A stretch of 64,000 bases of DNA from Thermoprotei archaeon (GTDB taxonomy: Archaea > Thermoproteota > Thermoprotei > Gearchaeales > Gearchaeaceae): the NCBI GenBank assembly GCA_017857595.1, contig JAFMCU010000005.1:1-64000 (forward strand), written 5' to 3'. Below are positions 51,245 to 57,534 of the stretch, piece after piece (within the stretch, counting starts at the first letter, position 1; each line of letters opens with the position of its first letter). The notes below the pieces were generated by a model. It worked only from the letters and a program-made list of their open reading frames with translations. It had not been told where the DNA came from and did no database searches. Position numbers and translations under genes: made by a program.

Positions 51245-51421
51245 TCACTCAGCTTTAACTATTTTAGCAGCAGGTCTTTTTATTTTTATTAAAATCCTAG
51301 AATTGCAATAGATGCAAGAGAAATTTCTTACTGTAATACTTCTTTCTAAAATTTCTTTATATGATATTTTCCTTCCACATCTAATACATTGATATTCAAA
51401 GGATTGAGCAGATGTTTCCAT
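51245..51421 (-). CDS. rpoP: RNA polymerase subunit P (Rpb12-like), 58 aa, not in ORF track
   Basis: METSAQSFEYQCIRCGRKISYKEILERSITVRNFSCIYCNSRILIKIKRPAAKIVKAE; CxxC...CxxC, stop TGA at 51245-51247. Confidence 0.9.
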   Translation of the reverse strand: METSAQSFEYQCIRCGRKISYKEILERSITVRNFSCIYCNSRILIKIKRPAAKIVKAE

Positions 51422-51525
51422 AAAGTAGATACCTTATGATTAAATATTTAAGGTTTTAGTATTATAATTTATTATCAAAAGAATGAAAAATACAAACATT
51501 TCCGTCACAAGGCGGGGGTGGGTCC

Positions 51526-51825
51526 TTGGGTAAAAAGGAAACCGACGACCTCTTCTCTGTAGAAGACATATTAGAAAACTTAGATAAAGAACAAAAAAGA
51601 ATAAAAATTAGGTTCGAAAAAAGAAAATTTGGGAAGGGCGTTACTGTTATTGAAGGATTATCTGAAGATGTAGGTCTTGAGATAACTAAAGAGCTTAAAA
51701 CAAAATTAGCTTGTGGAGGAACCTATAAAAATGGGAATATTGAACTACAGGGCGATCATAGAAATACTGTAAAACAATATTTATTATCATTAGGATATTT
51801 GGAAGATAATATCATAGTAGAATAA
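51526..51825 (+). CDS. Translation initiation factor aIF1 (SUI1), inferred TTG start
   Basis: RIKIRFEKRKFGKGVTVIEGL...LKTKLACGGTYKNGNIELQGDHR; no in-frame ATG. Confidence 0.92.
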   Translation: MGKKETDDLFSVEDILENLDKEQKRIKIRFEKRKFGKGVTVIEGLSEDVGLEITKELKTKLACGGTYKNGNIELQGDHRNTVKQYLLSLGYLEDNIIVE

Positions 51826-52014
51826 ATGAGTATTAAAGATATTTTTAAAAATCTTAAATATAAGAAAAAATACGAACTAAGATGTCCCGAATGCGGAAGT
51901 AAAAATATTTATAAATTATTTTCAATGCAATGGCTTGCACCTTCACCTTATATATGCAAAGATTGTGGCTACACAGGATATATATTGATCGAATTTGAAG
52001 AGAGTAAAAAATAA
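51826..52014 (+). CDS. Small zinc-ribbon protein downstream of aIF1
   Basis: RCPECGSKN...ICKDCGYTGYI. Confidence 0.7.
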   Translation: MSIKDIFKNLKYKKKYELRCPECGSKNIYKLFSMQWLAPSPYICKDCGYTGYILIEFEESKK

Positions 52015-55652: not shown

Positions 55653-56372
55653 TTAATTAAATTTATAAAACTTAATGCCATCGTAGAAGGTTCTAGCTAC
55701 GTAGATATTCTCTGGTTTGTTTTTAGTGAGAACTATTTCCAAATATTTTATAATATTATATTCATTTATTAAAGTTACAGTTATATTTTCTAAATGATTT
55801 TCATAAATATTATCTGATATCTTTCTTATTTCATAATTATTTAACAAATTATTCAAATTTGGCTTATAATTTTTATTATCTATTACATTTATTATTACAA
55901 CTGATTTTTTATACTTTGTTTTTTTAAAATCTTTATTAAAAATATTTACTCTTGATCCCGATTTAAATAGAAAGGGATAGACAAAAAAATCAGGTATATT
56001 ATATCTAGAAATATCATTTAATAAATCATTAATTATTAGATTTATATCGATTTCTTTTAAATTAGATTCAATATATTTATCTAATATTTTAATACCTATT
56101 AATGTACCGATAAACATACCTAATTCCCATGCGCAAGGTAACTCGTAATATATTAGGATTTCATTATTTTCTAATATTCCCAAATTATCACAAAAATTTT
56201 TGATTTCTTCCATCATCTCATGTGGAATCTTATTGTAGAATTTTAATCCTTTTCCCTGAAAAACGTATAAATTTAATCCTTTATCAATTGGTAAAAAATC
56301 TACTACATTATTTTTATATGAAATCGATAAATATGCCGGTATGAAAAGTGAATATTTAATGTTTTTATTCAT
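55653..56372 (-). CDS. Uncharacterised protein, possible degenerate GHMP-kinase-like fold
   Basis: LPCAWELGMFIGTLIG resembles a degraded GHMP motif; weak. Confidence 0.35.
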   Translation of the reverse strand: MNKNIKYSLFIPAYLSISYKNNVVDFLPIDKGLNLYVFQGKGLKFYNKIPHEMMEEIKNFCDNLGILENNEILIYYELPCAWELGMFIGTLIGIKILDKYIESNLKEIDINLIINDLLNDISRYNIPDFFVYPFLFKSGSRVNIFNKDFKKTKYKKSVVIINVIDNKNYKPNLNNLLNNYEIRKISDNIYENHLENITVTLINEYNIIKYLEIVLTKNKPENIYVARTFYDGIKFYKFN

Positions 56373-57534
56373 GGTTTAGTAATTTCTTAAAAGTTAAAAG
56401 AGGTTGATATTCTTTTAATAAATCTCTTATAGCTAGAATCTTATTTAGATACATATACCTATTGCTTAAGAAATTTTCCATCAGTTTTTCTAGGTCCTTT
56501 TGATTCAGATCTTCAATAAATACGATTTCGCAAGCTCCCATTTTTTTAAGTGAAATAGAATTGTTAATTTTCTCTGTGTGACCTTTGAGTAAAAACACAA
56601 TAAAAGGCTTTTCGAAAAAAATTGCCTCGAATAGCGAAGTATGTCCACCCGTAACTATTAGAGCTTTTGATTTATGTATATTTTCTTCAATAAATTGCTT
56701 ATCCATGTAACCGAATATGTTCAAATTATTTTTCCTAAAATTTTTTAAATATCTTATACCTGTAAATATATTATATTTATAAATTAGATTAGAGTTATTC
56801 AATAAATTTAAAATATATTTAAGATAGGAAAATCTTTCTTGCAATGTACCTGCTATTAGAATTGTTATCATATTATCTTCTTTAATATTTTTATAATTAA
56901 ATATTTTATCTAAAAATATAAGAGGACCTATAAAAATAATTTTTTTAAAATTAGCAATATTTTTTATTCTTATATTTTTAGAGGAAACTGTATAAGGAGG
57001 CTTTATGTCTGGTATTATAATATATTTTGCTTTTCTCCACCAATAAAAAATAATCTCATATATAATTCTTTCAGATAAATTTTTCAAAAATTTTATGAAA
57101 CTATTCATCGGCTTTATTCTTGGTATTTCCACAAAGATTTGGTTACTTATAACAATTGTTTTTATTCCTAATAAATTCGAAGCGATAACCGATGATATTC
57201 TACTATCACATATAACAACATCAGGCTTTATTGCTAACAAGTTTCTAAATTCAATGAATAAATGAAATAGCCACGAAATTTGGAATTTTATAAATTCTCT
57301 TGACAAAGTTATCTTAAAAGATAATCTTCCTCTATCGTCGAAATAATACTTAATCTCTTTGTTATTGATTATATTCTTATATAAGTTACTAAAATAATTA
57401 TAACCATCGTAATATGTACTTATATAAACTTTATGTTTTTCTTTTAAAAGAAATTGAATTATATAATTACAACGTGAAGAATGTCCAAATCCTAAACCGT
57501 TTATACTAAAGTAAATCTTTTTTATCGAGCTCAA
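56365..57534 (-). CDS. MurG/GT28-like glycosyltransferase
   Basis: INGLGFGHSSRCNYI N-terminus; VTGGHTSLFEAIFFEKPFIVF. Confidence 0.82.
   Translation of the reverse strand: MSSIKKIYFSINGLGFGHSSRCNYIIQFLLKEKHKVYISTYYDGYNYFSNLYKNIINNKEIKYYFDDRGRLSFKITLSREFIKFQISWLFHLFIEFRNLLAIKPDVVICDSRISSVIASNLLGIKTIVISNQIFVEIPRIKPMNSFIKFLKNLSERIIYEIIFYWWRKAKYIIIPDIKPPYTVSSKNIRIKNIANFKKIIFIGPLIFLDKIFNYKNIKEDNMITILIAGTLQERFSYLKYILNLLNNSNLIYKYNIFTGIRYLKNFRKNNLNIFGYMDKQFIEENIHKSKALIVTGGHTSLFEAIFFEKPFIVFLLKGHTEKINNSISLKKMGACEIVFIEDLNQKDLEKLMENFLSNRYMYLNKILAIRDLLKEYQPLLTFKKLLNHE

Follow-up and report, generated by a model that had tools for sequence, protein, structure and literature searches.

In a hot-spring archaeal MAG, the gene for aIF1 appears to be translated from a UUG codon that is marked by a strong Shine-Dalgarno (SD) site and lies at the end of an overlapping, transcribed upstream ORF (uORF); we put the probability of this combination at about 60%. 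The locus lies within a stretch of 64,000 nucleotides, hereafter called the window, from a genome of 1.47 Mb with a GC content of 29.1% (476 kb sampled). Genome statistics were obtained from this 476 kb, fetched as stretches, and start codons were assigned by a simple in-house gene caller, so that all frequencies are approximate. For the family comparison, the window was set beside two further loci, L007 from the same genus and L003 from another genus, giving three genomes in two genera. L007 belongs to Crenarchaeote SCGC AAA261-N23, the closest named relative (same contig in genome G001), whose aIF1 is 82% identical. The features of the locus, in window coordinates, are as follows.

51245..51421, minus strand: divergent Rpo12-like gene (RNA polymerase subunit P), matching NCBIfam subunit P models at E ~1e-5, below the curated cut-off
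51440..51451, no strand assigned: palindromic TATA element TTAAATATTTAA, in the intergenic stretch that separates aIF1 from the divergent Rpo12-like gene
51468..51473, plus strand: predicted aIF1 transcription start, about 51470, placed from the TATA match and a spacing of 33-40 nt
51483..51533, plus strand: uORF MKNTNISVTRRGWVLG with its stop codon, beginning at the first AUG of the predicted mRNA and overlapping aIF1 by 8 nt, as read from the sequence
51497..51520, plus strand: possible, weak hairpin CAUUUCCGUC-ACAA-GGCGGGGGUG that would bury the SD site, from RNA folding
51514..51521, plus strand: SD site GGGGGTGG, with its core GGTG at 51517-51520, 5 nt before the TTG, from complementarity to the 16S 3' end
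51526..51528, plus strand: TTG start codon of aIF1, the sole canonical start in the open frame, aligned with TTG in L007 and L003
51526..51825, plus strand: coding sequence of aIF1 (SUI1 family), 99 aa, from Pfam SUI1 and NCBIfam
51826..52014, plus strand: gene for a small zinc-ribbon protein, whose ATG abuts the aIF1 stop codon (TAAATG)

The protein read from 51526 was identified as SUI1/aIF1 (Pfam PF01253, E 6.7e-19), and its match to the NCBIfam subfamily PRK00939 exceeds the cut-off. The top NCBIfam model for 51526-51825 carries the name 'stress response translation initiation inhibitor YciH', and automatic annotation may therefore misname the archaeal aIF1. Both L007 and L003 also have a divergent neighbour that resembles the Rpo12-like gene in sequence. 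A contig end of AAA261-N23 (L004:1-110) holds the aIF1 start again, as a truncated second copy fused to phosphoesterase sequence; this is probably an amplification chimera of the single-cell genome.

The aIF1 frame opens after an in-frame stop codon, TGA 51484-51486, and reads AAA ATA CAA ACA TTT CCG TCA CAA GGC GGG GGT GGG TCC TTG up to the start, with no ATG, GTG or TTG in frame between the TGA and TTG 51526. The first-pass annotation of this DNA had described aIF1 as having no in-frame ATG and TTG 51526 as its plausible start; this is exact in the sequence, and a TTG is aligned at the position in all three family genomes. The codons around it are CAA GGC GGG GGT GGG TCC TTG GGT in the window, ATG GGA AGA GGT GGT TCA TTG AGT in L007 and ATG GGT GGT GAA CTT TTG AAC in L003. 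We conclude that aIF1 very probably starts at TTG 51526. Such a start is unremarkable in itself: TTG makes up about 7% of predicted starts in the window's genome (28/398), and at this frequency its presence alone is not beyond chance. UUG is accepted as a start codon across archaeal mRNAs of every leader size (PMC7531240) and therefore need not be a regulatory device. When position-matched TTG starts of the window family were compared between genera, two of six, aIF1 included, remained TTG. A glycosyltransferase-like gene on the minus strand of the window (56365-57534; NCBIfam MJ1255 family match, below cut-off) has a TTG start behind GGGGTG, and this TTG is retained in the other genus (G002).

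Both relatives have an ATG in frame with aIF1, which raises the reading that the true family start is this upstream ATG, and that the window lost it and took the TTG as a recent substitute. An ATG at the equivalent site in orthologs had been named beforehand as an observation that would refute the first-pass reading, and the outcome is divided: the two relatives do have an in-frame ATG, but it lies 18 nt (L007) and 15 nt (L003) upstream of the aligned TTG, and the equivalent site is TTG in both. The codons before the TTG differ between the window and L007 mostly at third positions, which favours an upstream start. Against it, the two ATGs stand at different offsets and pair weakly with the anti-SD (-3.9 kcal/mol in L007 and -2.7 kcal/mol in L003), their position is not that of a leaderless start, and what all three genomes have in common is the SD core and the TTG. 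We therefore regard an upstream ATG start as improbable.

The stretch before the TTG is G-rich beyond chance for a genome of 29.1% GC, where the 476 kb sampled contain 10 places with a 12-mer of at least nine G. We assigned GGTG as the SD core because the 16S 3' end of a same-family genome is GGATCACCTC, to which GGGGGTGG is complementary; 16S is absent from the window's own MAG, and the anti-SD was taken from this same-family sequence. SD sites are rare in the genome, as 322 of the 398 predicted starts lack an exact match of 4 or more. The aIF1 site pairs with the anti-SD at -8.7 kcal/mol, where the median over the genome is -1.5, and ranks as the fifth strongest of the 398. At the aligned TTG the pairing energies are -11.0 kcal/mol in L007 and -9.2 kcal/mol in L003, and in all three genomes the GGTG core ends precisely 5 nt before the TTG. 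The earlier description of this leader as SD-like and unusually G-rich for the genome is thus borne out by its rank and by the conservation of core and spacing. Since core and spacing are conserved and pairing is strong at the TTG and weak at the upstream ATGs, the best explanation of the G-richness is that it forms the SD site of the UUG start.

The region 51470-51560 folds at -22.9 kcal/mol (z -1.7), and 15 of 200 shuffled sequences folded equally well. We rejected the leader hairpin as a conserved switch: z values in the three genomes are -1.7, -1.9 and +0.7, and no helix is common to them. The strongest SD site of the sampled genome, TAGAGGTGG at -15.1 kcal/mol (L045:3596, plus strand, own genome, contig C7), lies inside a short ATG ORF (MLSFSRGGL), and the TAA of this ORF shares bases with the start codon (TAATG).

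To place the transcript, we trained a TATA model on upstream sequences from the window's genome; its peak lies 33-40 nt before ordinary start codons. On the aIF1 strand the top match, with 6.4 bits against 2.4 for the runner-up, starts at 51435, which is 48 nt upstream of the uORF ATG and 91 nt upstream of the TTG. Because the model puts the transcription start near 51470, the uORF is probably part of the mRNA and would hold its first AUG after roughly 10-15 nt. The first-pass annotation had left it ambiguous whether transcription starts before or after 51483; the model predicts a position of about 51470 and does not favour one beyond 51483. In L003, the top-scoring TATA match lies 39 nt before the uORF ATG at -68; the matches in L007 are weak and make its transcription start less certain. 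On the opposite strand, the match lies 35 nt before the ATG of the Rpo12-like gene (7.3 bits), and the palindromic element TTAAATATTTAA appears to serve both genes.

The ATG at 51483 opens a 16-codon ORF, MKNTNISVTRRGWVLG, that stops at TAA 51531-51533; its earlier description, as an out-of-frame ORF ending across the TTG, is correct letter for letter. An overlapping uORF is present in all three family genomes. That of L007, MRKKGISTEWEEVVH, has 15 codons and that of L003, MSDYNRSACVAYKSVNLTWVVNF, has 23 codons (28 from an earlier ATG); both terminate at the TGA of TTGA, with a 4-nt overlap in each, compared with 8 nt in the window. In each of the three genomes, the uORF stop overlaps the aIF1 start and the SD site lies within the uORF. 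The distance from the uORF ATG to the TTG is 43 nt in the window, 44 nt in L007 and 68 nt in L003, and the frames differ. We rejected the uORF as a conserved peptide, since its peptide is not conserved across the three family genomes; a role of the uORF, if it is used, would be positional, through termination at the start codon, and not via the peptide.

The same distances bear on a further reading, in which translation of aIF1 truly begins at the uORF AUG and continues into the aIF1 frame, through programmed frameshifting or because a one-base assembly error in the G run has split what is really a single frame. Removing a single base between 51486 and 51525 would indeed bring ATG 51483 into frame, and there is a precedent in Sulfolobus: the aIF1 gene of S. 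solfataricus P2 was annotated with an interrupting -1 frameshift, re-sequencing gave a full-length gene, and a peptide of the shifted form was reported (PMC8211752). The aIF1 genes of S. solfataricus and of the window resemble each other in carrying odd expression signals; the former is full length on re-sequencing, while the frame offsets in the window family speak against frameshifting. A shift of +1 would be needed in the window and of -1 in the two relatives, and the uORF stop codons stand right at the TTG in all three genomes. A frameshift fusion of uORF and aIF1 was rejected on these inconsistent offsets (43, 44 and 68 nt), which rule out a shared frame relation, and a single-base assembly error was rejected because the uORF is out of frame by different amounts in all three genomes. 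Joined frames of either kind are, in our judgement, very improbable.

A less elaborate account deserves more weight: a plain UUG start whose strong SD offsets the weak codon, with the uORF as a chance AUG that has no role, and with no feedback. We consider this a serious possibility, although not the favoured one. The strong SD could equally just compensate for the weak codon, and TTG starts are ordinary enough, at the 7% given above for the window's genome and at 15-25% of starts in another family, f18. Overlapping uORFs are also common. Within the 55 nt upstream of each gene, the first ATG began an overlapping ORF at 40 of 203 genes; among predicted long leaders the count was 7 of 40. At about 20% of genes, an overlapping uORF at one gene alone is not beyond chance; moreover, neither peptide nor frame is conserved. 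On the other side, the first AUG near the predicted transcription start opens an overlapping uORF in 3/3 genomes. When leaders were shuffled, the chance of an overlapping uORF in the loose form was 0.33, 0.34 and 0.17 in the three genomes, with a product of about 0.02, although the genomes are related and not independent. In a strict form, requiring an AUG within 16 nt of the predicted transcription start and a stop within 8 nt of the start codon, the chances were 0.05, 0.12 and 0.04, but this form was chosen after the data had been seen. Per genome, the range is therefore 0.04-0.12 (strict) or 0.17-0.34 (loose), and we take the recurrence in three of three genomes as mildly suggestive. Several of the strongest SD sites in the genome belong to operon-distal genes, which also counts against a plain start. 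By our own count, overlapping uORFs before aIF1 elsewhere in the class occur at about the background rate. A genome-wide link between strong SD sites and overlapping uORFs at first genes was tried and rejected, as it depended on the threshold (p 0.02 to 0.45).

Under the reading that we prefer, a UUG/SD start together with a transcribed uORF, the aIF1 mRNA would have a leader of ~55 nt and its start at UUG 51526 would be selected by the strong SD. The short ORF opened by the first AUG would run across the SD and terminate over the aIF1 start, so that aIF1 would occupy the position of a second cistron whose start overlaps the first. If the uORF is translated as well as transcribed, ribosomes terminating on it may restart at the UUG by termination-reinitiation, possibly aided by the opening of the hairpin over the SD. 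The layout of the two ORFs suggests such coupling of aIF1 translation to the uORF, which we put forward tentatively. A further step would be negative feedback, in which a high level of aIF1 lowers its own synthesis, as with eIF1 or IF3 in principle. Feedback could arise because aIF1 disfavours non-AUG start codons: according to published work (cited in PMC6237735; PMC8211752), the factor helps mRNA to bind, while complexes formed on non-AUG codons are destabilised by it. Retention of the TTG and the SD site in the relatives makes autoregulation of aIF1 through its own start conceivable, but we judge it unlikely. A literature search limited to open-licence papers turned up no archaeal example of aIF1 autoregulation.

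We surveyed aIF1 loci across the class together with a sample of the phylum (66 further loci). Nearly all of these genes have an in-frame ATG, ruling out a non-ATG start of aIF1 as a general rule. On whether non-ATG starts are conserved in orthologs, the picture is mixed: they are kept in the window family and in some clades, but most orthologs use ATG. The exceptions cluster by clade, with TTG in 12/12 genomes of f18 and in the one sampled of f42 (1/1), and GTG in 4/4 of genus g25 of family f13. In f18 (L173, L185, L190 and L205-L213), the TTG stands behind an invariant AGGTGA in all 12 sampled genomes, covering seven genera; it lies 66 nt before the SUI1 match, mostly without any uORF. Between two f18 genomes, seven position-matched TTG genes, aIF1 included, were compared; three stay TTG and four become ATG. 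The aIF1 TTG pattern of f18 is noteworthy, but not far outside background. The g25 genes (L037, L038, L082 and L085) lack an in-frame ATG and carry a GGGGATCC or GGGGGAAC stretch upstream; their start appears to be GTG. In many aIF1 genes of the class, a G run (for example GGGGGTAATG, GGGGATAATG or GGGGGAGAATG) sits just 2-5 nt upstream of the ATG, nearer to it than an SD normally is; such loci include L010, L012, L022, L023, L026, L033 and L035.

Known systems resemble parts of this arrangement. In crenarchaea with mostly leaderless mRNAs, transcripts of translation genes are SD-leadered (Wurtzel et al. 2010, as cited in PMC7531240). Like these, aIF1 is a translation gene with a leader and an SD in an SD-poor genome, the SD having 16S 3' end complementarity, proper spacing and conservation; the window adds a UUG start and a uORF to the pattern. 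In archaea, including crenarchaea, with mostly leaderless mRNAs, SD motifs serve mainly for reinitiation where two genes overlap; in H. volcanii, the overlapping pairs that were tested are strictly coupled (PMC6728339). Coupling needs short overlaps, typically 4 or 1 nt, with 4 nt among the commonest coupled forms (PMC10666635). The aIF1 locus shares with such pairs a stop codon that overlaps the start and an SD in the 3' part of the upstream ORF. It differs in that this ORF has only 15-28 codons, begins near the predicted 5' end and is only presumed to be translated, and in the 8-nt overlap of the window, compared with 4 nt in the pairs.

The feedback reading would ally aIF1 with factors that police start-codon choice and curb their own synthesis through a weak start, as IF3 does in bacteria and eIF1 in eukaryotes. 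The window holds the same elements, a gene for a start-codon police factor with a weak start codon (TTG) and, here, a very strong SD. That UUG, strong SD and overlapping AUG uORF together act as a feedback sensor of start-codon stringency is a speculative proposal that we think unlikely to hold, and the same doubt applies to its corollary, that the UUG version of f18 and the GUG version of g25 arose separately. In bacteria, infC, the gene for IF3, is autoregulated through an AUU start codon that is very widely conserved. Both infC and aIF1 encode start-codon fidelity factors and have a non-AUG start. AUU, unlike UUG, is not an ordinary alternative start codon, and whereas the infC AUU is widely conserved, non-ATG starts of aIF1 are confined to some clades and feedback through them is hypothetical. 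Because nearly all orthologs outside the family use ATG, the arrangement in the window does not amount to a general equivalent of infC or eIF1. The eIF1 protein represses initiation at the AUG of its own gene, which stands in a poor context (Ivanov et al. 2010, as cited in PMC6237735); it is a homologous factor of the SUI1 family, and in both genes the start site is suboptimal. The weakness lies in the context for eIF1 but in the codon for aIF1, whose SD is unusually strong, as judged from sequence. If feedback does operate, aIF1 would be an archaeal counterpart of the infC and eIF1 loops. Whether such feedback is shared by all three domains has its test cases in f18, with its invariant UUG and strong SD, and in the window family, with its UUG and leader ORF.
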